The notes beneath the pieces were generated by a model that saw only the letters and a program-made list of their open reading frames with translations, had not been told where the DNA came from and ran no database searches. Made by a program: the position numbers and the translations under genes. Of a DNA stretch of 36,952 nt, positions 10,382-23,530 are shown one piece after another; within the stretch, counting starts at the first letter, position 1, and each line of letters begins with the position of its first letter. Origin of the DNA: Ideonella azotifigens (GTDB taxonomy: Bacteria; Pseudomonadota; Gammaproteobacteria; Burkholderiales; Burkholderiaceae_C); NCBI RefSeq assembly GCF_006519715.1, contig NZ_VIDT01000005.1, forward strand, positions 1 to 36,952, in the 5' to 3' direction.

Positions 10382-11641
10382 TCAGGGGCGGCGCAGCAGC
10401 CGATCCGGCGAAGTCGCGTCGTCACCCAGCTCGGCCTTCACCCGGCGTTCGATCTCCAGCATCAGCTTGAGCAGGTCCGCGCGCGGGTTGAGCTGGAAGG
10501 CCTTGGCACCGGCCTGCTCGGGGAAGAGCTGGGCCAGCACGGGCTGCAGTTCGCGCGCGGTCGAGTCGATGCGCAACTGGAGCACAAAGGGTGCCGGGAC
10601 CGGCGCGGCGCCATTTGCAGTGGCGGACACCGCGGCTTCGGCCGGGTCGGCCAGGGTGGGCATGGCGCCAGAGGTCGATGGCTCGGACGGCGGATGTTGC
10701 GCTCCATCGGCGGGGGCGTCGAACACCAGTTCGCGGCTGCTGAAGCTGCGTGGCGCGCTGCCGGCACAGGCGGCCAGGTCGGGCACCGTCCAGGGCTGGA
10801 GCGGCGAGCCATCCAGCCCGAGGGCCAGGTCCCGGCCCGTGATGAACTCGTTGTGCGGCCAGCCGCTGTCGCCGCGCCACCAACGGTTTCTCACGCGCGC
10901 AAAGGTCTGCCGCGTGACCGCGATCGGCTGGGCCCCGTAGCGCTCCGGCAGGGCCTTGAGTTCCTCGTCCACTGCGGTGGCGTAGGCCACGCCTGCCCGG
11001 GCCACCGCGCGCGCGCCGATCTCGATGCCGACAACGTGCGAAAGCGTGTCCTCATAGGTGAAGGCCGAGATCTTCTCGGGGGCCAGGAAGGTGCTGCGGT
11101 AGTCGAACCAGGTCAGCACTTCGTGCCAGGTCATCATCAGGAACGCCATGCGGCGTGCGAGCGTGTCCAGTTCGGGCCAGGGCGGGGGCGATCCCTGCGC
11201 CAGCGCAGGGCGCTGCAAGGTGACGCGCACTTGCATGCCGCGGTCGCCGGCAGGCACGGTGAACTTGAGCGTCTGGTCCTGGCGGGCCCAGGCCGCGCCC
11301 AGCCGGCCGTGCAGGTAGGCCACCCAATCTGCGGACTGGCGCAGGTGGTCCACGTCCAGGAAGCCGGCTGCGCAGGTGTAAACCAGCCCCCCTCTTTCGC
11401 CGCGATGGTCGCGATAGCCGTGCTGGCCGACGAAGTGGACGTCGAAGAACATGTTGTCCACGCCGCGCAGCGTATGCAGCGCCGGGATGGTGCCCAGGCG
11501 CACCCCGGGGGCGAAGCCGGCCTCCTGCGCATCGAGCGCCGCGGCCCTGCCATTGCCCGCGCACATGGCCAGGCCAAGAACTGCCGCGGCAAGCTTCAGT
11601 CGCGCTGCGCAACTGTGTCTGATGCGATGGGAATTCCACAC
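10382..11641 (-). CDS. Exported DUF4056-like protein of unknown function
   Basis: This 419-aa protein appears to belong to DUF4056, judged from RGGLVYTCAAGFLDVDHLR…ADWVAYL near residues 80-115 and a later TWHEVLTWFDY / FTYEDTLSHVVGIEIG pair. I assign it from memory of the family pattern. I prefer a GTG start at 11641. A GAGGGAGGCGG ribosome site lies just before it, and the N-terminus then forms a signal peptide (basic residues, LKLAAAVLGLAMCAG, cleavage near GRA/ALD). Longer frames to 11764 have no such support. Conserved His, Asp and Glu residues would allow a hydrolase role, but none is proven. The C-terminal third is Ala/Pro-rich. Its stop lies 4 bases from the stop of the convergent ligase gene. 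Confidence 0.7.
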   Translation of the reverse strand: MWNSHRIRHSCAARLKLAAAVLGLAMCAGNGRAAALDAQEAGFAPGVRLGTIPALHTLRGVDNMFFDVHFVGQHGYRDHRGERGGLVYTCAAGFLDVDHLRQSADWVAYLHGRLGAAWARQDQTLKFTVPAGDRGMQVRVTLQRPALAQGSPPPWPELDTLARRMAFLMMTWHEVLTWFDYRSTFLAPEKISAFTYEDTLSHVVGIEIGARAVARAGVAYATAVDEELKALPERYGAQPIAVTRQTFARVRNRWWRGDSGWPHNEFITGRDLALGLDGSPLQPWTVPDLAACAGSAPRSFSSRELVFDAPADGAQHPPSEPSTSGAMPTLADPAEAAVSATANGAAPVPAPFVLQLRIDSTARELQPVLAQLFPEQAGAKAFQLNPRADLLKLMLEIERRVKAELGDDATSPDRLLRRP

Positions 11642-11704
11642 GATGCCGCCTCCCTCTCCACATTGGGCCGAACCGGCCCGCATGCTAGGCCTGGCCCGCG
11701 ATCC

Positions 11705-11727
11705 GCTTGTGGGCGACGGGCACAAGC
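11705..11727. promoter_or_regulatory. Inverted repeat GCTTGTG-N9-CACAAGC in the divergent promoter region
   Basis: Two 7-base perfect arms (11705-11711 and 11721-11727) lie 64 bases upstream of the DUF4056-like start, in the 269-base space between that gene and the Liv binding-protein gene. A regulator binding site for either gene is possible. No regulator gene is adjacent. Confidence 0.3.
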
Positions 11728-11834
11728 AATCGTCGGAAGAGGGGTCTTGCATCGCTCGCTGCACGGCCGGCCCGCGCGCATGGCGTTTTCCCGCGGCTTT
11801 GTCCCGGGCGCGACAAGCTTTAGTGGTAGTCCCT

Positions 11835-11910: not shown

Positions 11911-13149
11911 ATGAAGATCAGCTACAAATGGCTTGGCATGGTGGTCACGGCATCGCTGGCGATGACCACCGGCCTGGCCCACGCCCAGAAGGGCGAAACG
12001 GTCAAGGTCGCGTGGATCGACCCCTTGAGCGGGCTGATGGCCCCGGTCGGCCAGAACCAGGTCAAGAGCTTCCAGTTCATTGCCGAGCAGTTCAACAAGG
12101 GCAATGCGGCCGGCGTGAAGTTTGAAGTCGTCCCGATTGACAACAAGCTCAGCCCGGCCGAGTCGTTGAATGCCTTGAAGTCGGCCATCGACCAGGGTGT
12201 GCGCTATGTGACCCAGGGCAATGGCTCCAGCGTTGCACTGGCGCTGATCGATGCGATCAACAAGCACAACGAGCGCAACCCGGGCAAGGAAGTCGTCTAC
12301 CTCAATCATTCTGCGGTAGACCCCGACCTGACCAACAGCAAGTGCAGCTACTGGCACTTCCGGCTGGACGCCGACACCTCGATGAAGATGGAGGCCTTGA
12401 CCACCTTCATGAAGGACCAGAAGGACATTCAGAAGGTCTACCTGATCAATCAGAACTATTCGCATGGCCAGCAGGTGGCCAAATACTTCAAGGACGCGCT
12501 GGCGCGCAAGCGTCCGGACGTGCAGGTGGCGGGCGAAGATCTGCATCCCCTGGCCCAGGTGCGCGACTTCGCGCCATATGTCGCCAAGATCAAGGCCTCC
12601 GGCGCCGACACCGTGGTGACCGGCAACTGGGGATCCGACCTCACCCTGCTGGTGAAGGCGGCCAACGACGCCGGCCTGAACGTCAAGTTCTACACCTACT
12701 ACGCCGGCGTGACAGGCACGCCCACCGCGCTCGGTGCCGCGGCAGCCGGTCGTGTGTTCCAGGTCGCCTACGCCACCTCCAACATGGGTGGCGCGACCGC
12801 CAAGCTGATGGCTGACTTCAAGACCAAGTTCAACGACGACTGGTACACGGGCTCCAGCTACCACCTGTTCGCGCTGCTGAGCGACGCGATGGCCAAGGCC
12901 AAGTCCACCGACCCGGTGAAGGTCGCCGCTGCCATGGAAGGCCTGAAGTTCAAGAGCTTCAACGGCGAGGTCGAGATGCGCAAGACCGACCACCAACTGC
13001 AGCAGCCGCTGTTCATCTCGGTTTGGCAGAAGACTGACGCGAAGAACAACTACAGCGTCGAGAACACCGGCTACACCTTCGCCGAGGTCAAGGCCTACGA
13101 CGCGTATGTTTCCAGCACGCCCACCTCGTGCCAGATGAAGCGGCCCTGA
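11911..13149 (+). CDS. Branched-chain amino-acid-type ABC transporter substrate-binding protein
   Basis: This 412-aa periplasmic binding protein is of the LivK/HAAT type I fold. The signal peptide spans residues 1-25 (MKISYKWLGMVVTASLAM…AHA). The mature start VKVAWIDPLSGLMAPVGQ is the typical ligand-pocket strand, followed by NALKSAIDQGVRYVTQGNGS and the inter-lobe segments. The RBS AGGAGACGG precedes the ATG. It is the first gene of a five-gene transporter operon. The ligand may be a branched-chain amino acid, amide, urea or aromatic or aliphatic acid. Neighbouring acyl-CoA catabolism makes an organic acid plausible, but this cannot be decided from the sequence. Confidence 0.93.
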   Translation: MKISYKWLGMVVTASLAMTTGLAHAQKGETVKVAWIDPLSGLMAPVGQNQVKSFQFIAEQFNKGNAAGVKFEVVPIDNKLSPAESLNALKSAIDQGVRYVTQGNGSSVALALIDAINKHNERNPGKEVVYLNHSAVDPDLTNSKCSYWHFRLDADTSMKMEALTTFMKDQKDIQKVYLINQNYSHGQQVAKYFKDALARKRPDVQVAGEDLHPLAQVRDFAPYVAKIKASGADTVVTGNWGSDLTLLVKAANDAGLNVKFYTYYAGVTGTPTALGAAAAGRVFQVAYATSNMGGATAKLMADFKTKFNDDWYTGSSYHLFALLSDAMAKAKSTDPVKVAAAMEGLKFKSFNGEVEMRKTDHQLQQPLFISVWQKTDAKNNYSVENTGYTFAEVKAYDAYVSSTPTSCQMKRP

Positions 13150-13181
13150 GCAGGGTGAGCGCGCCGCTGCGCGCCTGAACC

Positions 13182-13216
13182 GGGCCCGCCGGACGCCGCT
13201 CCGCCGGGCCCTTTTT
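13182..13216 (+). terminator. Intra-operon terminator between binding protein and permease
   Basis: GGGCCCG (13182-13188) pairs with CGGGCCC (13205-13211), and T5 follows directly. It lies 33 bases past the binding-protein stop and 34 bases before the first permease. Partial termination here would give more binding protein than membrane subunits, a usual need in binding-protein-dependent importers. Confidence 0.8.
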
Positions 13217-13249
13217 GTCGACCTTTCTACGTCACTGGAATCACCTGCC

Positions 13250-14281
13250 GTGGACCAGATCCTGATCAACCTGCTGAACGGCTTCAGCTCCGGGCTGTTG
13301 CTGTTCATGCTCAGCTCCGGGCTGACGCTGATCTTCAGCATGATGGGCGTGCTGAACTTCGCCCATGCCAGCTTCTACATGCTGGGCGCCTACGTGGCCT
13401 ATTCGCTGAGCAACTGGCTGGGCTTCACCGCTGCGCTGGTGCTGGCCCCGCTGATCGTCGGCGGCCTGGGCGCCTTGTTCGAGCGCACGGCACTGCGCCG
13501 CGCGCACAAGTTCGGCCATGTGCCCGAACTGCTGATCACCTTCGGCCTGTCCTACGTGGTGCTGGAAGTGGTGCAGCTGATCTGGGGCCGCACGCCGGTG
13601 CCGGCGGTGCCGCCGGCCTGGCTGCAAAGCTCGGCCTTCACGGTGGTGCAGTCGGCCCAGCACGGGCTGTCCATCGTGGCGGGCGTGGCGCCGCCGGAGA
13701 TGTGCCAGTCCGCAGGCGAGGCGGCAGCCAGCTGCTCGCGTTTCCCGATGACCCGCGCCTTCATGATGCTGGTCTCGCTGGGCATGCTGCTTGCGCTGTG
13801 GCTGCTGCTGACGCGCACCCGCATCGGCCTGGTGATCCAGGCGGCGCTGACCCACCCGGAAATGGCCGAGGCGCTGGGCCACAACGTGCCGCGCGTGCTG
13901 ATGCTGGTGTTCGGCTCCGGCTGCGCACTGGCGGCGCTGGCCGGCGTGATCGGCGGTGTCACCTTCGTCACCGAGCCGGCGATGGCCGCGGTGGTCGGCT
14001 CCATCATCTTCGTGGTCGTGGTGGTGGGCGGCATGGGCTCGCTGGCCGGGGCCTTTGTCGGCTCCATCGTCATCGGCCTTTTGCAGACGCTGCCGCTGAC
14101 GGTGGACGCTTCGCTGGCCGACCTGTTCAACCGCTTCGGCGCTTCGGTGCACGAAGGCTCGCGGGGCTGGCCGCTGCTGCGCATCACGCTGGCGCAGGCG
14201 GCGCCCATCCTGCCGTACCTGCTGCTGGTGTTGATCCTGATCTTCCGGCCCAAGGGCTTGATGGGCACACGGGAGGAATGA
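13250..14281 (+). CDS. livH: LivH-type ABC transporter permease
   Basis: This 343-aa inner-membrane permease belongs to the branched-chain amino acid family. The start, LINLLNGFSSGLLLFMLSSGLTLIFSMMGVLNFAHASFYMLGAY cut here into its two parts LINLLNGFSSG and GVLNFAHASFYMLGAY, is the LivH hallmark. The EAA-like coupling region is RTRIGLVIQAALTHPEMAEALG, and the end GTREE follows IFRPKGLMG. Eight or so hydrophobic segments are visible. It starts with GTG at 13250 with only a weak ribosome site, and pairs with the LivM protein 4 bases downstream. A Ser/Cys/Ala-rich insert near residues 145-165 (PPEMCQSAGEAAASCSRF) lies in a periplasmic loop and is longer than in E. coli LivH. Confidence 0.93.
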   Translation: MDQILINLLNGFSSGLLLFMLSSGLTLIFSMMGVLNFAHASFYMLGAYVAYSLSNWLGFTAALVLAPLIVGGLGALFERTALRRAHKFGHVPELLITFGLSYVVLEVVQLIWGRTPVPAVPPAWLQSSAFTVVQSAQHGLSIVAGVAPPEMCQSAGEAAASCSRFPMTRAFMMLVSLGMLLALWLLLTRTRIGLVIQAALTHPEMAEALGHNVPRVLMLVFGSGCALAALAGVIGGVTFVTEPAMAAVVGSIIFVVVVVGGMGSLAGAFVGSIVIGLLQTLPLTVDASLADLFNRFGASVHEGSRGWPLLRITLAQAAPILPYLLLVLILIFRPKGLMGTREE

Positions 14282-14285
14282 GGCA

Positions 14286-15695
14286 ATGAGCATGGCTGTA
14301 CAACCTGACATGGCGGCTTCGCCCGCGGCCATCCGTCCTGCCGCGCCGGTGCTGGCCGCGGTGCCCAGCGGCCCGCCGCCAGTGGCCACCGTGCGCCGGC
14401 AACCCAGTCCGCGCAGCTACCACTTCAAGCCCTGGAATGTGGGCCGCGCGCTGATCTGGAGCCTGTTCGCCGTGACCTTGCTGGTCGTGCCGCTGCTGTG
14501 GACCACCAGCTTCGCGCAGACCATGCTGTGCCAGATGGGCATCGGCATCATCGCCTGCCTTGCCTACAACATCCTGCTCGGCCAGGGCGGCATGCTGAGC
14601 TTTGGGCATGCGGTCTACAGCGGTCTCGGCGGCTTTGTTGCGATCCATGCGCTGAACGCCGTCAGCGCCGGCAGCCTGCACCTGCCGGTCAGCCTGGTGC
14701 CGATCGCGGGCGGGCTGGGCGGCCTGTTCTTCGCCGCGCTGCTGGGCTACGTGACGACCAAGAAGAGTGGCACGACCTTCGCGATGATCACGCTGGGCCT
14801 GGGCGAGCTGGTCTGGTCCATGTCGCTGATGCTGCCGGAGTTCTTCGGCGGCGAGGGCGGCGTCTCGGGCAACCGCGTGGTCGGCGAGAAGGTCTTCGGC
14901 ATCAGCTTCGGGCCGCAGATCCAGCTGTACTACCTGATCGCCGTCTACTGCTTCGTCTGCACCGGGCTGATGTTCGCGCTGACCCGCACGCCGCTGGGCC
15001 GCATGCTCAACGCCGTGCGCGACAACCCGGAGCGCGTCGAGTTCATCGGCTACTCCACGCAGCGCGTGCGCTACCTGGCCTTCATGATCTCCGGCTTCTT
15101 CGCCGGCATTGCGGGCGGGCTGAGCGCGCTGAACACCGAGATCGTCAATGCCGAAGTGGTCGGCGCCGCGCGTTCGGGCTCTTACCTGCTGTTCGTGTTC
15201 CTCGGCGGCGCCACTTTCTTCTTCGGGCCCATCATCGGCGCGGTGCTGATGGTCGTGGCGCTGGTGCTGCTGTCGGAGCTCACGCAGGCTTGGCTGCTCT
15301 ACCTGGGCCTGGTCTTCATGTTCATGGTGATGTTTGCGCCCGGTGGTGTGGCCGGACTGGTCATGATGAACCTTCGCGTGGCTGCGCACGGCAAGCTGGG
15401 CCGCTTGTGGACAGGCTACCTGGCGCTGGCTGGCACGGCAGCCACGGTGCTGCTGGCCGCGGCGGTCTGCATCGAGATGGTCTACCACCTGCGGCTCAAC
15501 GAGGCGCTGGGCCCGCAGATGAACTTCCTCGGCGTGACGCTGGATGCCAAAGGCCTGGATGCCTGGTGCGGCGCAGCGCTGCTGCTGCTGACCGGTGCCG
15601 GGTTGTTCGAAGTTTCGAGGCGGCACTTTGCCCAGCAATGGGGCGAGGCGCAGGAAGAGATCGAGCGCGAGATGAAGCGCAGGGAGGCCTTGTGA
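14286..15695 (+). CDS. livM: LivM-type ABC transporter permease with N- and C-terminal extensions
   Basis: This 469-aa partner permease has the family core LAYNILLGQGGMLSFGHAVY, GTTFAMITLGLGELVW, the coupling loop RTPLGRMLNAVRDNPERVEFIGY, and SGSYLLFVFLGG…FFGPIIGA. It carries ~55 extra N-terminal residues rich in Pro/Ala before the first membrane helix. After the usual end (FAPGGVAGLVMMN, residue ~360) there is a ~105-residue extension with two more hydrophobic helices and a charged tail (EIEREMKRREAL). The start at 14286 has GAGGAATGAGG upstream; 14292 is an alternative. Its stop overlaps the livG start by one base (TGATG). Confidence 0.93.
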   Translation: MSMAVQPDMAASPAAIRPAAPVLAAVPSGPPPVATVRRQPSPRSYHFKPWNVGRALIWSLFAVTLLVVPLLWTTSFAQTMLCQMGIGIIACLAYNILLGQGGMLSFGHAVYSGLGGFVAIHALNAVSAGSLHLPVSLVPIAGGLGGLFFAALLGYVTTKKSGTTFAMITLGLGELVWSMSLMLPEFFGGEGGVSGNRVVGEKVFGISFGPQIQLYYLIAVYCFVCTGLMFALTRTPLGRMLNAVRDNPERVEFIGYSTQRVRYLAFMISGFFAGIAGGLSALNTEIVNAEVVGAARSGSYLLFVFLGGATFFFGPIIGAVLMVVALVLLSELTQAWLLYLGLVFMFMVMFAPGGVAGLVMMNLRVAAHGKLGRLWTGYLALAGTAATVLLAAAVCIEMVYHLRLNEALGPQMNFLGVTLDAKGLDAWCGAALLLLTGAGLFEVSRRHFAQQWGEAQEEIEREMKRREAL

Positions 15696-16528
15696 TGAGC
15701 AGTTCGGTTGCCGTGTCTTCCAACGGGTCCAGCCCGTACGCCTTGGAATTGTTAGGGGCGCACAAGCGGTTTGGGCTGACGGAAATCATCCGCGGCGCAC
15801 AGCTGCAGGTGAAGCCGGGCGAGCGCGTGGCCATCATCGGGCCCAACGGCGCGGGCAAGTCCACCTTGTTCAACCTGATCTCCGGGCGCTTCGGCCTCAG
15901 CAGCGGCGAGATCCGCCTGCACGGCGAGCGCATCGACGGGCTCAAGCCTTACGAAATCAACCGCCGCGGACTGTCGCGCAGCTTCCAGGTCAGCAACCTG
16001 TTCACCCGCCTCTCGGTGTTCGAGAACCTGCGCTGTGCGGTGCTGTGGTCCATGGGCCAGCGCTACGCGTTCTGGCGCTTCCTGTCCAACCAGCACGAGG
16101 CCAACGCGCGTGCCGAGGAGGTCATGCAGATGATCAAGCTCGACAAGCGGCGCGACCAGCTGGCAATGAACCTCACCTATGCCGAGCAGCGTGCGCTGGA
16201 GATCGGCATCACCATCGCCGGCGGCTCCAGCGTGATCCTGCTGGACGAACCGACCGCCGGCATGAGCAAGAGCGAAACCAAGCGCTTCATCCAGCTGATC
16301 CGCGAGGTCACCGAAGGCAAGACGCTGCTGACCGTGGAACACGACATGGGCGTGGTCTTCGGCCTGGCGGACCGCATTGCGGTGCTGGTCTATGGCGAGG
16401 TGATCGCCTTCGACACGCCAGATGCGGTGCGCGCCAACCCGCGCGTGCAGGAGGCCTACCTCGGCTCGGTGCTGGCTGATCACCAGGCGGCCGAAGCTGT
16501 GGCGCAGCCGATGGGGTGCGCTGCATGA
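15695..16528 (+). CDS. livG: LivG-type ABC transporter ATPase (non-canonical signature motif)
   Basis: This 277-aa ATPase has Walker A GPNGAGKST (Lys55), Q-loop SFQVSNLF, Walker B VILLDEPTAGM and switch His in TVEHDMG. The ABC signature, normally LSGGQ or LSYGQQ in this family, reads LTYAEQ at residues 160-165 (16172-16189), so the glycine that contacts the gamma-phosphate is replaced. It overlaps livM by one base and livF by four (ATGA), which couples translation. It powers uptake through the LivH/LivM pair. An N-terminal Ser-rich stretch of ~13 residues precedes the fold. Confidence 0.93.
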   Translation: MSSSVAVSSNGSSPYALELLGAHKRFGLTEIIRGAQLQVKPGERVAIIGPNGAGKSTLFNLISGRFGLSSGEIRLHGERIDGLKPYEINRRGLSRSFQVSNLFTRLSVFENLRCAVLWSMGQRYAFWRFLSNQHEANARAEEVMQMIKLDKRRDQLAMNLTYAEQRALEIGITIAGGSSVILLDEPTAGMSKSETKRFIQLIREVTEGKTLLTVEHDMGVVFGLADRIAVLVYGEVIAFDTPDAVRANPRVQEAYLGSVLADHQAAEAVAQPMGCAA

Positions 16529-17232
16529 CAAAAGAACTGCTGCAGCTGTCCAATGTGCATGCCTACTATGGCAAGAGCCATGTGCTGCACGGCGTGTCGC
16601 TGAACATTGGCGAAGGCGAGATCGTCAGCCTGCTGGGTCGCAACGGCGCGGGCCGCTCCACCACCGTCAAGGCCATCATGGGCCTGGTGGACGCACAGGG
16701 CTCGGTCAAGTGGCGGGGCCGCGAACTGGTCGGCCGCAAGGCCTTCGAGATCGCCCACGAAGGCATTGGCTACGTGCCCGAGAACCGCGACATCTTCCCG
16801 CGCCTCACCGTGGGCCAGAACCTGCTGCTGGGCGTGAAGAGCGGCAACAAAAAAGGCCGCTGGAGCCTGGACGACATGTTCAAGCTGTTCCCTCGCCTGA
16901 AGGAGCGTGAACACACCGCCGCCGGCGTGCTCTCAGGCGGCGAGCAGCAGATGCTCACGCTGTGCCGCACGCTGATGGGCGACCCGGACCTGATCATGAT
17001 CGACGAGCCCACCGAAGGCCTCGCCCCGAAGATCGTGGAACTCGTCGCCGACTACCTGCGCGAACTCAAGCGCCGCGGCATCTCGGTCCTGCTGGTCGAA
17101 CAGAAGCTCACCATCGCCCTCGAAGTCTCCGAACGTTGTCTGGTGATGGGCCACGGCCGCATCGTGTTCGAGGGCTCGCCGGCAGAACTGAAGGCCAACA
17201 GCAACGTCCGCAAGGAGTGGCTGGAGGTTTGA
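16525..17232 (+). CDS. livF: LivF-type ABC transporter ATPase (Walker A Lys replaced by Arg)
   Basis: This 235-aa second ATPase of the importer begins with LLQLSNVHAYYGKSHVLHGV, the LivF pattern. Walker A reads GRNGAGRST: the invariant Lys is Arg44 (codon CGC at 16654-16656). The signature LSGGEQQM, Walker B LIMIDEPTEGL and VEQK in place of the usual H-loop VEQN follow. The ATG at 16525 overlaps the livG stop as ATGA. Arg in Walker A usually weakens hydrolysis. I recall GRNG.GRST in other beta-proteobacterial LivF-like proteins, so this is probably a subfamily trait and not a sequencing error. It is the last gene of the operon. Confidence 0.93.
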   Translation: MTKELLQLSNVHAYYGKSHVLHGVSLNIGEGEIVSLLGRNGAGRSTTVKAIMGLVDAQGSVKWRGRELVGRKAFEIAHEGIGYVPENRDIFPRLTVGQNLLLGVKSGNKKGRWSLDDMFKLFPRLKEREHTAAGVLSGGEQQMLTLCRTLMGDPDLIMIDEPTEGLAPKIVELVADYLRELKRRGISVLLVEQKLTIALEVSERCLVMGHGRIVFEGSPAELKANSNVRKEWLEV

Positions 17233-17477: not shown

Positions 17478-19571
17478 ATGAGCGCAAGCTATGAAGTCCG
17501 CGGCAATGTGGCCGTCATCACGCTGAACAATCCTCCCGTCAACGGCTTGGGCGCGGCGACCCGCCTGGCGATCGCCGACGGGCTGGAGAAGGCGCAGGCC
17601 GATGCGGCCGTCAGCGCCATCGTGGTCACTGGCGCCGGCAAGGCGTTTTCGGGGGGCGCGGACATCAAGGAATTCGGCACCCCGCGCGCGCTGGCCGAGC
17701 CCAACCTGCTGTCGCTGATCAAGCTGGAAGAGGCCTGCAGCAAGCCCATCGTCGCGGCCATTCATTCGGTGTGCATGGGCGGCGGGCTGGAGCTGGCGCT
17801 GGGCGCGCATTACCGCGTCGCCGCGCCGGGCACCAACGTGGCCTTGCCGGAAGTGAAGCTGGGCCTGGTGCCGGGCGCTGGTGGCACGCAGCGCCTGCCG
17901 CGTGTGCTGGGGCTGGAAACCGCGCTGAACATCATCGTCAGCGGCGAGCCGGTGAAGAGCGAGTTGCTGGCGATGCAGCCAGGCCAGAAACTGTTCGACC
18001 GCATGATCGACGGCGACCTGCTGGAAGGCGCCATCGCGTTCGCCAAGGAAGTGGCCGAGGTGCGGCCGCTGCCGCTGGTGCGCGACCTGAAGGTCAAGCA
18101 TCCGGAAGCGCAGGCTTTCCTGCAGTTCTCGCGCAACACCGTGGGCGCGATGTCCAAGAATTTCCCGGCGCCGCTGCAGTGCGTGGAAGCCGTGGCGGCC
18201 TCGCTGGGCAAGGACTTCGAGGCCGGCATGAAGGTCGAGCGAGAGGCCTTCATCGCGCTGATGTTCACGCCCGAAAGCAAGGCCCTGCGCCATGCCTTCT
18301 TCGCCGAGCGCGCCGCAAGCAAGATCTCCGACGTGCCGGACGGCACGCCGGTGCGCCCCATCAACAAGCTGGCCGTGATCGGCGCCGGCACGATGGGCGG
18401 CGGCATCGCGATGAACTTCCTGAACGCTGGCATTCCCGTCGTGATGCTGGAGATGAAGCAGGACGCGTTGGACCGTGGCGTGGCCACGATGCGCAAGAAC
18501 TATGAAGGCCAGGTCAAGAAGGGCAAGCTGAAGCAGGAGAAGTACGACGAGCGCATGGCGCTGCTGTCGACCACGCTGAGCTACGACGCACTGGGCGACG
18601 CCGACATGGTGATCGAGGCCGTGTTTGAGGACATCGACGTGAAGAAGGCCGTGTTCCAGGAGCTGGACCGTGTGATGAAGCCCGGCGCCATCCTGGCCAG
18701 CAACACCTCCACGCTGGACGTCAACAAGATCGCAGCTTTCACCAAGCGCCCGCAGGACGTCATTGGGACCCACTTCTTCAGCCCGGCCAACGTGATGAAG
18801 CTGCTGGAGGTGGTGCGCGGCGCGGCCACCGCCAAGGACGTGCTGGCCACCGTGATGCAGCTGGGCAAGAAGATCAAGAAGACCTGCGTGGTCTCGGGCG
18901 TGTGCGATGGCTTCATCGGCAACCGCATGATCGAGCAGTACAGCCGCCAGGCCGGCTTCCTGCTGGAGGAAGGCGCCACGCCGGCGCAGGTGGACAAGGC
19001 GGCCGAGAAGTTCGGCTTCGCGATGGGCCCGTTCCGCATGGGCGACCTGGCCGGCAACGACGTGGGCTGGTACATCCGCAAGCGCCGCTACCTGGAGAAG
19101 CCGGACCTGCGCTACTCCAAGACGGCCGACCTGCTGTGCGAGATGGGCCGCTTCGGCCAGAAGACGGGGGCCGGCTGGTATGACTACGTGCCCGGAAAGC
19201 GTGACGCGATCCCGTCGCCGCTGGTCGAGCAGATGATTGCCGACTACCGCAAGGACCTGGGCATCACGCCGCGCAAGATCAGCGACGACGAGATCGTCCA
19301 TCGCCTGGTGTTTGCGCTGGTCAACGAAGCCGCGCGCTTGCTGGAAGAGGGCATCGCCCAGCGCGCGTCGGACGTGGACATGGTCTACCTGACCGGCTAC
19401 GGCTTCCCGCTGCACCGCGGTGGTCCGATGTGCTACGCCGACACGGTCGGCCTCTACAACGTGGTGCAGATGATGAAGCGCTTTGCGCAGAACCCGCATG
19501 ACGACGCGACCTTCTGGCAGCCCGCGCCGCTGCTCGCGAAGCTCGCAGCCGAAGGCAAATCCTTCAGCTGA
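17478..19571 (+). CDS. Bifunctional enoyl-CoA hydratase / 3-hydroxyacyl-CoA dehydrogenase
   Basis: This 697-aa fused beta-oxidation enzyme has a crotonase domain at about residues 1-190. The oxyanion-hole segment is [11 protein letters not shown], with catalytic Glu105 (GGGLELALG) and Glu125 ([19 protein letters not shown]). These positions match the hydratase pair of peroxisomal MFE-1 closely. The NAD-binding dehydrogenase domain begins near 297 ([12 protein letters not shown]), with His432 ([15 protein letters not shown]) and its partner Glu444. C-terminal dehydrogenase domains follow to the end. It hydrates 2-enoyl-CoA and oxidises the 3-hydroxyacyl-CoA to 3-ketoacyl-CoA. AAAGGGAT lies before the ATG. 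Length and domain order resemble MFE-1/FadJ rather than being a split pair. The thiolase gene follows after 37 bases. Confidence 0.95.
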
Positions 19572-19608
19572 TCGCGCCCCACCACATACAGAACACACAG
19601 GAATTGCC

Positions 19609-20784
19609 ATGACCGATGCCGTCATTGTTTCCACCGCCCGCACCCCGCTCGCCAAGAGCTGGAAGGGCGCTTTCAACATGACCCATGGCGCGACGCTGGG
19701 CGGCCATGCCGTCAAGGCCGCTGTCGAGCGGGCCGGCATCGAAGCCGGTGCCATCGAAGACGTGCTGATGGGCTGCGCCAACCCCGAAGGTGCTACCGGC
19801 GCCAACATCGCGCGTCAGATCGCGCTGCGCGCCGGCCTGCCGATCACCGTCAGCGGTGTCACCGTGAACCGTTTCTGCTCCAGCGGCCTGCAGACCATCG
19901 CGATGGCTGCGCAGCGCATCATTGCCGGCGAGGGCGATGCCTACGTGGCCGGTGGCGTGGAAAGCATCTCCTGCGTGCAGCAGGAAATGAACCACCACAT
20001 GCTGCACGAAAGCTGGCTCATGAAAAACAAGCCGGAGATCTACTGGAGCATGCTGCAGACCGCCGAGAACGTGGCGCAGCGCTACAAGATCCCCAAGGAG
20101 CGCATGGACGAATACGGCGCGGCCAGCCAGCAGAAGGCTTGCGCCGCACAGGAAGCGGGCCTGTTCAACGCAGAGATCGCGCCCATCACCGTGACGGCCG
20201 GCGTGATCGACAAGACCCTGGGTCTGCGCAGCAAGGAAGTGACCTGCAGCGCCGACGAGGGCCTGCGTCCGGGTACCACGCTGGAAGCGGTGCGCGGCAT
20301 CCGCACGGCGCTGCCGGGCGGCGTGATCTCCGCCGGCAATGCCAGCCAGTTCAGCGACGGCGGCGGCGCCTGTGTGCTGGTCAGCGACAAGTACGCGCAG
20401 CAGAAGGGCCTGACGCCGCTTGGCCGCTTCCTCGGCTTTGCCGTGGCCGGTTGCGAGCCTGACGAAATGGGCATTGGCCCGGTCTTCGCGGTGCCCAAGG
20501 TCTTGAAGCGCCTGGGCCTGATGGTGGCCGACATCGACCTCTGGGAGCTGAACGAAGCCTTCGCGGTGCAGGTGCTGTACTGCGCCGACACGCTGGGCAT
20601 TCCAATGGACAAGCTGAACGTCAATGGTGGCGCGATTGCGGTCGGCCACCCGTATGGCGTTTCTGGCCAGCGCCTGACCGGCCACGCGCTGATCGAAGGC
20701 AAGCGCCGTGGCGCGAAGAAGGTCTGCGTGACCATGTGCATCGGCGGCGGCATGGGCGCCGCCGGCGTCTTCGAGGTCCTGTAA
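19609..20784 (+). CDS. Acetyl-CoA acyltransferase (3-ketoacyl-CoA thiolase)
   Basis: This 391-aa thiolase cleaves 3-ketoacyl-CoA to acetyl-CoA and a shortened acyl-CoA. The nucleophile is Cys90 in [10 protein letters not shown]. The active-site His347 lies in [16 protein letters not shown], and the second Cys377 in [10 protein letters not shown]. The [13 protein letters not shown] motif is typical of degradative thiolases. CAGGAATTGCC precedes the ATG at 19609; the longer frame from 19483 lies inside the upstream gene. It forms a FadBA-like pair with the fused hydratase/dehydrogenase. Confidence 0.96.
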
Positions 20785-20797
20785 GCCATGGCCGGTG

Positions 20798-20817
20798 GCA
20801 CCGCGCGCCCACGGTGC
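20798..20817 (+). other. Intercistronic hairpin between thiolase and acyl-CoA dehydrogenase
   Basis: GCACCG (20798-20803) pairs with CGGTGC (20812-20817) in the 91-base gap. There is no T-run, so it is more likely an mRNA-processing or stability element than a terminator. Confidence 0.3.
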
Positions 20818-20875
20818 GCGGGCCGCTGCTGCATGGGCGACCGCTGCTGCCGCCCGTCATCTCAAAGGAGGGACC

Positions 20876-22708
20876 ATGCGCGCCCTGGTGGACTTTTTGC
20901 TGCGTGACTGGCTGCACGCCGACACGCTGACCGAGCGGCCGCGTTTTGCCGACCACAGCCTGGAAACCTTCGCCCAGGTGCTGGACACCTGCGAGCGCAT
21001 CGCGCGTGAGAAGTACGCGCCGTTCAACCGGCTGGTGGACACCGAGGAGCCGCGCTTCGACGGCGAGAAGGTGATCCTGCCGCAGGCCACGCACGACGCC
21101 GTGAAGGCCTACGCGGCCTCCGGCATGCTCAGCGCCGCGCAGGACTATGAACACGGCGGCATGCAGCTGCCGTACACCGTCGAAGCGGCGGCGAATGCGT
21201 TTTTCGCCAAGGCATCGGTCAGCATCGGCACCGGCATGCTGACCACCGGCAATGCCAACCTGCTGATGAAGCATGGCACCGAGCTGCAGAAGACGGTGTT
21301 CGCACTCAACGAGTTCAGCGGCCGCTGGTCCGGCACCATGTGCCTGTCCGAGCCGCAGGCCGGCTCCAGCCTGTCGGACGTGGCAACCAAGGCCGTGCCC
21401 GATGGCGACGATTTCGAGGCCGAACCCTTCGGCGCGCGCTACCGGCTGACCGGCAACAAGATGTGGATCTCGGCCGGCGAGCACGAGCTGAACGAAAACA
21501 TCATCCACCTGGTGCTGGCCAAGATCCCTGGGCCGGACGGCAAGCTGGTGCCCGGCACGCGCGGCATCTCGCTGTTCATCGTGCCGAAGAAGCTGGTGGA
21601 CGCGCAAGGCCGGTTGACCGGTGAGCGCAACGACGTGGCACTGGCCGGCCTGAACCACAAGTGCGGCTGGCGCGGCACGACCAACACCTTGCTGAACTTC
21701 GGCGAAGGCAGGTTCCCGGTGCGCGGTGGCCCAGGCGCCATCGGCTACCTGGTGGGCCGAGCCGGCGAAGGGCTGCGCTGCATGTTCCACATGATGAACG
21801 AGGCGCGCATCGGCGTGGGCATGGCGGCCACGATGCTGGGCATGGCGGGCTACGAGGCCTCGCTGGCCTATGCGCGGCAGCGGCCGCAAGGCCGGCCCAT
21901 CACCGAAGGCGGGAAAGACGCTGCGGAGCCGCAGGTCCCCATCATCGAACACGCGGACGTGAAGCGCATGCTGCTGGCGCAAAAGGCGTATTGCGAAGGT
22001 GCGCTGGCGCTGGAGCTGTATTGCGCGCGGCTGGTGGACGAGTCGCACACCGGCACGCCGGAAGCGGCGGCTGAAGCCAGCCTGCTGCTGGAAGTGCTCA
22101 CGCCGATTGCCAAGAGCTGGCCCAGCGAGTGGTGCCTGGAGGCCAACAGCCTGGCGATCCAGGTCCACGGCGGCTACGGCTACACGCGGGACTTCCCTGT
22201 CGAGCAGTACTGGCGCGACAACCGCCTGAACATGATCCACGAAGGCACGCACGGCATCCAGGCGCTGGACCTGCTGGGCCGCAAGGTGGTGATGCAGGGC
22301 GGTGCGGGCCTGAAGCTGCTGGCCACGCGCGTGGGCGAGACCATCCAGCGTGCGGGCCAGGTCCAAGGTCTGGCCGAACCGGCCAACGGCCTGGCCGCGG
22401 CGCTGCAGCAGCTGGGCGCGGCCACCAAGTCCGCCTGGGCCACGGGCGTGCCGGAAGAGGCGCTGGCCAATGCCACGCCTTACCTGCAGGCTTTCGGCCA
22501 TGTGGTGCTCGCGTGGATCTGGCTGGAGCTGGGACTGGCCGCGAAGCAGGCTGCACCTGCGACCGATGAGCAAGCCGCGCGCAACGCCGGCCTGCTGGCC
22601 GCGATGCGCTACTTCCACGTCTACGAGCTGCCCAAGATCGGCGCCTGGCTGGCCGTCGTCAGCCAACGTGAAGCGGTCTGCCGCGAGATGCAAGACAGCT
22701 GGTTCTGA
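20876..22708 (+). CDS. Long-form (~600 aa) acyl-CoA dehydrogenase, DmdC-like
   Basis: This 610-aa flavoprotein is of the acyl-CoA dehydrogenase superfamily and introduces the 2,3-double bond into an acyl-CoA. FAD/substrate segments are CLSEPQAGSSLSD, YRLTGNKMWIS, NHKCGWRGTTN (strand leading to the helical domain), NEARIGVGM, and VHGGYGYTRDFPVEQYWRDN. The probable catalytic Glu456 lies in MIHEGTHGIQ. About 150 residues beyond this make the extra C-terminal helical domain of the DmdC/FadE-type ~600-aa group. AAAGGAGGGACC lies directly before the ATG at 20876, one of the strongest ribosome sites in the window. It supplies the first oxidative step for the fused enzyme and thiolase upstream. Confidence 0.94.
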   Translation: MRALVDFLLRDWLHADTLTERPRFADHSLETFAQVLDTCERIAREKYAPFNRLVDTEEPRFDGEKVILPQATHDAVKAYAASGMLSAAQDYEHGGMQLPYTVEAAANAFFAKASVSIGTGMLTTGNANLLMKHGTELQKTVFALNEFSGRWSGTMCLSEPQAGSSLSDVATKAVPDGDDFEAEPFGARYRLTGNKMWISAGEHELNENIIHLVLAKIPGPDGKLVPGTRGISLFIVPKKLVDAQGRLTGERNDVALAGLNHKCGWRGTTNTLLNFGEGRFPVRGGPGAIGYLVGRAGEGLRCMFHMMNEARIGVGMAATMLGMAGYEASLAYARQRPQGRPITEGGKDAAEPQVPIIEHADVKRMLLAQKAYCEGALALELYCARLVDESHTGTPEAAAEASLLLEVLTPIAKSWPSEWCLEANSLAIQVHGGYGYTRDFPVEQYWRDNRLNMIHEGTHGIQALDLLGRKVVMQGGAGLKLLATRVGETIQRAGQVQGLAEPANGLAAALQQLGAATKSAWATGVPEEALANATPYLQAFGHVVLAWIWLELGLAAKQAAPATDEQAARNAGLLAAMRYFHVYELPKIGAWLAVVSQREAVCREMQDSWF

Positions 22709-22738
22709 TCACACGCACACACACAAGGAGACACAGAC

Positions 22739-23530
22739 ATGAGCACCCCGATTGCCAAGTTGATGGACCTCAGCGGCCAGACGGCCGTGGTCACCGGCGG
22801 CTCGCGCGGCCTGGGCCTGCAGATCGCCGAGAGCCTGGGCGAAGCCGGCGCGAAGCTCGTGTTGAGCTCGCGCAAGGCCGGCGACCTGGAAGAGGCCGCG
22901 GCCATCCTGAAGGCCAAGGGCATTGACGCCAGCTGGATCGCGGCCGATGCCAGCCAGCCCGAAGACGCCAAGCGCGTCGTGGCCGAGGCCATGCAGCGCC
23001 TGGGCCGGATCGACATCCTCGTCAACAACGCCGGCGCCACCTGGGGCGCACCGGCCGAGGACCACCCGCTGGAGGCCTGGGACAAGGTGATGAACCTGAA
23101 CATCCGCAGCCTGTTTGTCTTCAGCCAGCTGGTGGCGCAGGCCAGCATGATCCCGCGCCGCCACGGCCGCATCATCAACGTGGCCAGCATCGCCGGCCTG
23201 GCCGGCAACACCCACGAGATGAAGACCATTGCCTATAACACCAGCAAGGGCGCGGTGGTGAACTTCACCCGCGCGCTGGCTGGCGAGTGGGGCGAATACG
23301 GCATCACCGTGAACGCCATTGCCCCGGGCTTCTTCCCCAGCCGCATGACCAAGGGCCTGCTGGCCGCGGTGGGGGAGGAGAACATGGCCGCCAAGGCGCC
23401 GCTGCGCCGCCTGGGCGACGACGACGACCTCAAGGGTGCCGCGCTGCTGTTCGCCTCCGCCGCTGGCAAGCACATCACCGGCCAGATCCTGGCGGTGGAC
23501 GGCGGTGTCAGCGCCATCCATGGGGGATGA
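22739..23530 (+). CDS. Short-chain dehydrogenase/reductase (FabG-like)
   Basis: This 263-aa classical SDR has the NAD(P) motif TGGSRGLG at 19-26, the NNAG strand motif at 96-99, and a catalytic Ser150 / Tyr166 / Lys170 triad (NVAS, YNTSK). The end GQILAVDGGVSAIHGG is a usual SDR dimer tail. It probably oxidises or reduces a 3-hydroxy/3-keto acyl intermediate, for example of branched or hydroxylated acids, but the substrate is not defined. AAGGAGACA precedes the ATG. The 30-base gap before it is a CA-rich run. It is co-directional with, and probably in the operon of, the upstream dehydrogenase. Confidence 0.92.
   Translation: MSTPIAKLMDLSGQTAVVTGGSRGLGLQIAESLGEAGAKLVLSSRKAGDLEEAAAILKAKGIDASWIAADASQPEDAKRVVAEAMQRLGRIDILVNNAGATWGAPAEDHPLEAWDKVMNLNIRSLFVFSQLVAQASMIPRRHGRIINVASIAGLAGNTHEMKTIAYNTSKGAVVNFTRALAGEWGEYGITVNAIAPGFFPSRMTKGLLAAVGEENMAAKAPLRRLGDDDDLKGAALLFASAAGKHITGQILAVDGGVSAIHGG

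Follow-up and report, generated by a model that had tools for sequence, protein, structure and literature searches.

The question raised by this locus is whether the two ATP sites of an ABC importer are equal. In an ABC dimer, each composite site is made up of the Walker A of one subunit and the signature of its partner, as stated in the available part of PMC7756269. A window from Ideonella azotifigens (the whole stretch of 36,952 nucleotides analysed here) encodes two ATPases, LivG and LivF, that both carry altered motifs, and the answer depends on how these motifs are shared out between the two sites.

The Importer Operon and Its Surroundings

The transport operon spans positions 11911-17229 and holds a PF13458 binding protein, two PF02653 permeases, LivG, and LivF, the start of LivF overlapping the stop of LivG (Table 1). 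A binding protein and two permeases of these families adjoining two ABC ATPases, together with the BCA_ABC_TP_C domain (PF12399) on LivG at 40.1 bits against a cut-off of 25.5, assign it to the HAAT importers (LivFGHMK), which we take to be TC 3.A.1.4. The two ATPases scored below the curated cut-offs of the E. coli-type LivG and LivF equivalogs (NF008449, 171 against 362 bits; NF008626, 188 against 441 bits). A urea transporter was rejected, as the UrtD and UrtE models (TIGR03411, TIGR03410) also stayed below their curated cut-offs (193 against 304 and 225 against 286 bits). The closest named LivF matches, among the best 80 kept, were from Burkholderiales (Sphaerotilus, Rubrivivax, Ideonella, and others) and were at most 83% identical.

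Table 1: Features of the importer operon and motifs of its ATPases (positions in the window).
Feature	Positions	Strand	Domain evidence or ATP site
Substrate-binding protein of the importer (Peripla_BP_6)	11911-13146	+	PF13458, E 8.1e-73
LivH-type permease (BPD_transp_2)	13250-14278	+	PF02653, E 3.8e-32
LivM-type permease (BPD_transp_2)	14286-15692	+	PF02653, E 5e-32
LivG ATPase, 277 aa	15695-16525	+	PF00005 and PF12399
LivG Walker A GPNGAGKST, residues 49-57	15839-15865	+	Canonical, site 1
LivG signature position LTYAEQR, residues 160-166	16172-16192	+	Degenerate, site 2
LivG H-loop LTVEHDM, His present	16328-16348	+	Site 1
LivF ATPase, 235 aa	16525-17229	+	PF00005
LivF Walker A GRNGAGRST, residues 38-46	16636-16662	+	Site 2
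LivF Q-loop VPENRDIF, Glu86 for Gln	16774-16797	+	Site 2
LivF signature LSGGEQQ, residues 136-142	16930-16950	+	Site 1
LivF H-loop LLVEQKL, Gln193 for His	17089-17109	+	Site 2
FadB-like beta-oxidation protein, downstream	17478-19568	+	PF00378, PF02737, PF00725

A beta-oxidation set (FadB-like protein, thiolase, and acyl-CoA dehydrogenase; 17478-23527) follows the importer, and an AMP-binding enzyme (PF00501, 8539-10374) lies upstream of it. A DUF4056 protein, encoded on the minus strand (10382-11764), separates this enzyme from the binding protein. Over the loci of the 80 best LivF relatives, which differ in where the fetched stretch ends, a binding-protein relative was found in 66, a FadB-like ORF in 61, a thiolase in 48, and an acyl-CoA dehydrogenase in 28; for the 73 loci with at least 1500 bases past LivF, the FadB-like ORF was present in 58. 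The beta-oxidation genes nearby suggest an organic-acid cargo instead of branched-chain amino acids, and the importer, as judged from its neighbouring genes, may carry an organic or fatty acid.

Motifs of the Two ATPases

LivG is intact in Walker A, Q-loop, Walker B, and H-loop. Its signature alone is altered, Ala163 sitting where the conserved second Gly of the signature belongs. LivF has an intact signature with an altered Walker A, Q-loop, and H-loop, and Arg44 (codon CGC, 16654-16656) stands in place of its Walker A Lys. The Walker B Glu is kept in both proteins. An initial annotation of the interval 16172-16656, which runs exactly from the start of the LivG signature to the end of the Arg44 codon, had reported the GRNGAGRST Walker A of LivF, the LTYAEQ signature of LivG, and the canonical LivG Walker A and LivF LSGGEQQ, and all of these readings were confirmed.

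The pairing of LivG with LivF is assumed here from family knowledge. In such a heterodimer, site 1 would consist of the Walker A, Q-loop, Walker B, and H-loop of LivG with the LSGGEQQ of LivF; it is canonical and should hydrolyse ATP. Site 2 would bring together the Walker A, Q-loop, and H-loop of LivF with the LivG signature, and would depart from the canonical motifs at four places (Arg44, Glu86, and Gln193 of LivF and Ala163 of LivG). ABC-dimer geometry thus bears out the earlier proposal that both altered motifs share one composite site and that the other site is canonical, the altered Walker A facing the altered signature of its partner as in asymmetric ABC proteins. Glu86 and Gln193 are two more site-2 departures, absent from that annotation. 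We consider it probable that the window encodes a heterodimeric HAAT ATP motor with unequal sites, site 1 being hydrolytic and site 2 ATP-holding.

The Layout among Separately Encoded Pairs

To place this pair among its relatives, the LivF and LivG ORFs of 231 loci (L001-L231) and of the window were collected, the sampling being by similarity to the LivF of the window and the genome searches within its phylum. The 231 LivF and 228 LivG ORFs extracted (2 others were unassigned) yielded 226 distinct pairs, 228 of the LivF having a nearby LivG. At site 1, all 226 pairs had Gln in the Q-loop, Asp-Glu in Walker B, and His in the H-loop of LivG, and Ser-Gly-Gly in the LivF signature; the Walker A of LivG could be read in 225 rows and had Lys in each of them. 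In the remaining row, L104, the reading frame is off at Walker A, perhaps through a frameshift or a sequencing error; its column shows Lys by accident only, and it was left out of the 225.

At site 2, the LivF H-loop position was Gln in 220 pairs and Lys in 6, never His, and the Q-loop position was Glu in 215, Gln in 7, and Asp in 4. The LivF Walker A carried Arg in 134 pairs and Lys in 92. In the LivG signature, the fourth residue was Ala (113 pairs), Gly (106), Ser (3), Pro (3), or Val (1), and the third was Tyr (190), His (25), or another residue (11), in no case Gly. Taken together, the LivF Walker A and the fourth LivG signature residue were Arg with Ala in 113 pairs, Lys with Gly in 88, Arg with Gly in 18, Arg with Ser in 3, Lys with Pro in 3, and Lys with Val in 1. 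Leaving out the 80 best relatives gave 148 pairs with 88 Lys and Gly, 35 Arg and Ala, 18 Arg and Gly, 3 Arg and Ser, 3 Lys and Pro, and 1 Lys and Val. Each of the 226 separately encoded pairs shows the one-sided motif layout, which is not peculiar to the pair of the window.

Some smaller groups were also seen. In one LivF lineage (L124, L186, L207, L209, L210, and L222), an H-loop Lys (VDK or IDK) goes with Walker B DEA and Walker A Lys. In L191, L197, L205, and L226, the LivG signature is LTLPDRK, LTLPERK, or LTQVDMR, with the Gly lost, and Walker B is DEV or DEA; the partner LivF of these LivG retains the Walker A Lys.

Loss of the Walker B Glu is a hallmark of degenerate exporter sites according to the available part of PMC7544095. 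No such loss was found here, Asp-Glu standing in LivF as well as in LivG in 226 of 226 pairs, so that site 2 may keep some activity. The retained Glu on both sides and the positive charge that Arg preserves would also suit a functionally symmetric motor, in which site 2 still hydrolyses and HAAT pairs use a different catalytic set. Against this stand the LivF H-loop, which lacks His in every one of the 226 pairs, and the comparable ABCG5/G8 site, which the available part of PMC7756502 reports as inactive for hydrolysis, and we regard a symmetric motor as improbable.

The layout was also met beyond the surveyed pairs. E. coli K-12 LivF has VPEG (Q-loop Glu) and VEQN (H-loop Gln), and its LivG has IEHD (H-loop His), as in the window; unlike the clade of the window, with its Arg and Ala, E. 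coli keeps the Walker A Lys and the signature Gly (LAYGDQR). The solved LivF-like chain 1ji0, which we take to be from Thermotoga maritima, shows the same VPEG and VEQN. Five LivF from other phyla (three from Halobacteria, one each from Actinomycetota and Deinococcota; plasmids), picked by phylum from the 60 rows listed, all had the H-loop Gln, with Glu (2), Gln (2), or Asp (1) in the Q-loop. The LivG adjoining four of them had the H-loop His, the fifth LivF having no adjoining LivG. One haloarchaeal LivG carried ISGGQMK, which shows that not every LivG has the changed signature.

Conservation in the Clade and the Question of Co-Evolution

The ortholog clade was defined as the pairs whose LivF is at least 54% identical to that of the window, no pair lying between 50 and 54%. 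It comprises 116 pairs, 78 of them from the search for the best 80 relatives, which favours close relatives. LivF Arg goes with LivG Ala (113) or Ser (3) in all 116. Arg44 is invariant over five codons (CGC 88, CGT 14, CGG 8, CGA 5, AGG 1), LivG residue 163 is never Gly, though Gly is one base change away, and LivF identity within the clade falls to a minimum of 48%. Altered motifs of this constancy are neither a sequencing slip nor chance, and the invariance of Arg44 across five codons points to selection rather than decay. Whatever its origin, the altered state is kept up within the clade.

The same constancy bears on whether site 2 was simply released from constraint. After the change of the LivF H-loop and Q-loop, site 2 might have had no further need of the Lys or the signature Gly, and lineages would have gone on to different outcomes: Arg with Ala, Arg with Gly and DEI, Lys with DEA and an H-loop Lys, and Lys with Pro. 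At least four distinct site-2 states are indeed found in separate lineages of the tree. Within the clade, however, Arg44, Gln193, and Glu86 are among the 47 of 235 LivF columns that are invariant in 116 of 116 pairs, and residue 163 is restricted to Ala and Ser, which looks like purifying selection once the change had taken place. Relaxation of this kind seems to us rather unlikely as the explanation.

The initial annotation had gone further and held that Arg44 and the signature change co-evolved, that is, that the Lys-to-Arg change in LivF and the loss of Gly in LivG compensate for each other, each selecting for the other. The joint occurrence of both in 116 of 116 clade pairs, and the lack of any pair with Ala or Ser in LivG and Lys in LivF (0 of 226), would agree with this. 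On the other side, 18 of the 110 pairs outside the clade have Arg with the Gly kept, and 4 have lost the Gly (to Pro or Val) with the Lys kept, the latter being 4 of 226 overall. LivF proteins with GRNG.GR[ST] have a Gly-bearing LivG partner in 18 of 226 pairs, all of one lineage, so that the case named beforehand as counting against co-evolution is realised in part.

In a tree of 150 pairs, calculated after the columns of Walker A and of the signature had been taken out, the Lys/Arg state changes twice and the signature Gly is lost twice, with one joint origin in HAAT, and the tree-corrected test has 2 independent contrasts only. We therefore make no statistical claim on co-evolution, and the proposal is unsupported beyond one lineage. 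The pairs with Arg and Gly form one branch of this tree, and its sister is a group with Lys and LSYGRKR. The 150 rows leave the placement of both against the Arg and Ala clade unsettled; in a tree of 60 rows, all three form one group with a support of 95. LivF Arg arose either by two gains or by one gain and one reversion. The 18-pair lineage also has DEI for DEP in the LivF Walker B and mostly LPYGRKR as the LivG signature; it includes L002, L099, L169, L180-L182, and L188-L190, L002 being from the genome of the window itself.

Fused LivG-LivF ORFs

When the LivF portion of one fused ORF was used as the query, 30 loci were obtained; these, with L216 and L217, provided 32 LivF and 32 LivG domains, a number of which had been part of the earlier survey. 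The LivF H-loop position was Gln in 23, His in 7, and Lys in 2. All seven His belong to the seven fused LivG-LivF ORFs (L216, L217, L312-L315, and L340, of which L312 and L340 run off the start of the fetched stretch), and six of these seven also have the Q-loop Gln. The 25 separate LivF of the same set have Gln or Lys in the H-loop. A PF02653 permease domain is also present in the fused ORFs L216 and L217. The fused LivG-LivF are a HAAT motor with symmetric motifs.

An asymmetry running through the whole HAAT family is ruled out by the LivF H-loop His in 7 of 7 fused LivG-LivF ORFs. The initial annotation understated the asymmetry: the trait holds for 226 of 226 separate pairs and is absent from the fused ones.

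Fused Sugar/Nucleoside ATPases and a Control

A second kind of importer was explored with 34 fused sugar/nucleoside-type ATPases, presumably of the RbsA and NupO kind. Of 60 genomes of the order, 25 had a match and supplied these sequences, and the genome of the window added four more. The N-terminal halves have the Walker A Lys, Q-loop Gln, Walker B Glu, and H-loop His in 34 of 34, and the C-terminal halves the signature Ser-Gly-Gly in 34 of 34. The remaining C-half positions are altered: Walker A is Arg in 20, Gln in 12, and Lys in 2; the H-loop position is Ser in 23 and Glu in 11, with no His; the Q-loop position is Glu in 32 of 34; and the Walker B Glu is kept in 21 and lost in 13. The fourth signature residue of the N-half is Gly (19), Ala (13), or Ser (2). 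The one-sided layout therefore recurs in a second kind of importer. These proteins resemble the LivG-LivF pair in the deviant signature of one domain and the altered Walker A and missing H-loop His of the other; they differ in being one polypeptide, in having Ser or Glu where LivF has Gln in the H-loop, and in the loss of the Walker B Glu from some C-halves. LivG and LivF were found as separate ORFs in separate clades, not as two nucleotide-binding domains of one polypeptide.

The combinations in this set were Arg with Ala (11), Arg with Ser (2), Arg with Gly (7), Gln with Gly (12), and Lys with Ala (2). On an Arg background the signature residue can thus be Ala, Ser, or Gly, as relaxation would have it. 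For co-evolution, the recurrence of Arg with Ala or Ser in 13 of 34 proteins, in clades apart from LivF and LivG, is a favourable point, set against the 7 with Arg and Gly and the 2 with Lys and Ala. The Gly status changes five times on the best tree, in which many branches are weak, and the independent contrasts number 1 (starred branches) or 2 (all branches). Mutual compensation appears very doubtful to us as the origin of the paired changes.

As a control, fused dipeptide-type ATPases, one fused kind only, were read in 30 loci of the 56 genomes with a match, and 30 of 30 were canonical at both sites over all seven residues read per domain. Of the two proteins beside the control ATPase, one has PF00528 and one had no match. 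In the genome of the window, the three sugar/nucleoside-type operons looked at all contain a PF02653 permease, as do LivH and LivM.

In a quick domain tree of 82 rows, in which 23 of 79 inner branches are open, LivF and LivG each group by themselves, as does either half of each fused kind. Descent of the asymmetry here and in the fused sugar-type ATPases from one ancestral state is unsupported, since LivF lies apart from the C-terminal halves, and the likeness looks convergent or very old.

Comparison with Known Systems and a Model

The initial annotation had likened the layout to that of asymmetric ABC exporters, and the exporters in question agree with it. In ABCG5/G8, a changed signature and a Walker A Lys-to-Arg change from two subunits are paired in one site (available part of PMC7756269), with GSSGCGRAS in ABCG8 and ISTGE in ABCG5, the site being called inactive for hydrolysis in the available part of PMC7756502. 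Unlike the pair of the window, ABCG5/G8 is a sterol exporter, and its ISTGE signature retains a Gly. In yeast Pdr5, the Walker A Lys, the H-loop His, and the partner signature are all changed in one site, as in the window; the degenerate site of this exporter has Cys in Walker A, Asn in place of the Walker B Glu, Tyr in the H-loop, and LNVEQ as the signature (available part of PMC7756269). The further statement that the layout is not usual for importers stands with a caveat, as RbsA and NupO of B. subtilis have one degenerate site, with a second Walker A lacking the Lys, according to the available part of PMC11466899. Our literature search, whose coverage excluded most subscription journals, found no description of unequal sites in LivF/LivG.

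Returning to the heterodimeric motor with unequal sites, we infer from the motifs that site 2 probably serves to bind ATP and to keep the dimer together, its turnover being slow or nil, and that one ATP would be split per transport cycle, at site 1. The clade of the window would have deepened an asymmetry that already existed by adding the Lys-to-Arg and Gly-to-Ala changes.

The more useful result is the wider one-sided pattern, with its exceptions. We tentatively extend the model, with less confidence than we have in the motor of the window itself, to importers with PF02653 permeases: the separate LivF/LivG, those of E. coli included, and the fused sugar/nucleoside ATPases might form a large class with built-in asymmetry that spends a single ATP per cycle, at one site only. 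LivF of the window clade could then be a nearly pure ATP holder, and the LivM-LivG-LivF fusions the natural symmetric counterpart. The class offers natural contrasts between separate and fused symmetric LivG-LivF, between Arg with Ala, Arg with Gly, and Lys with Gly, and between PF02653 and PF00528 permeases. If the model is true, a textbook importer class, including LivFGHM of E. coli, works with one catalytic ATP site, the assumed ATP cost per substrate would change, and the question of degenerate sites would reach beyond exporters to importers.
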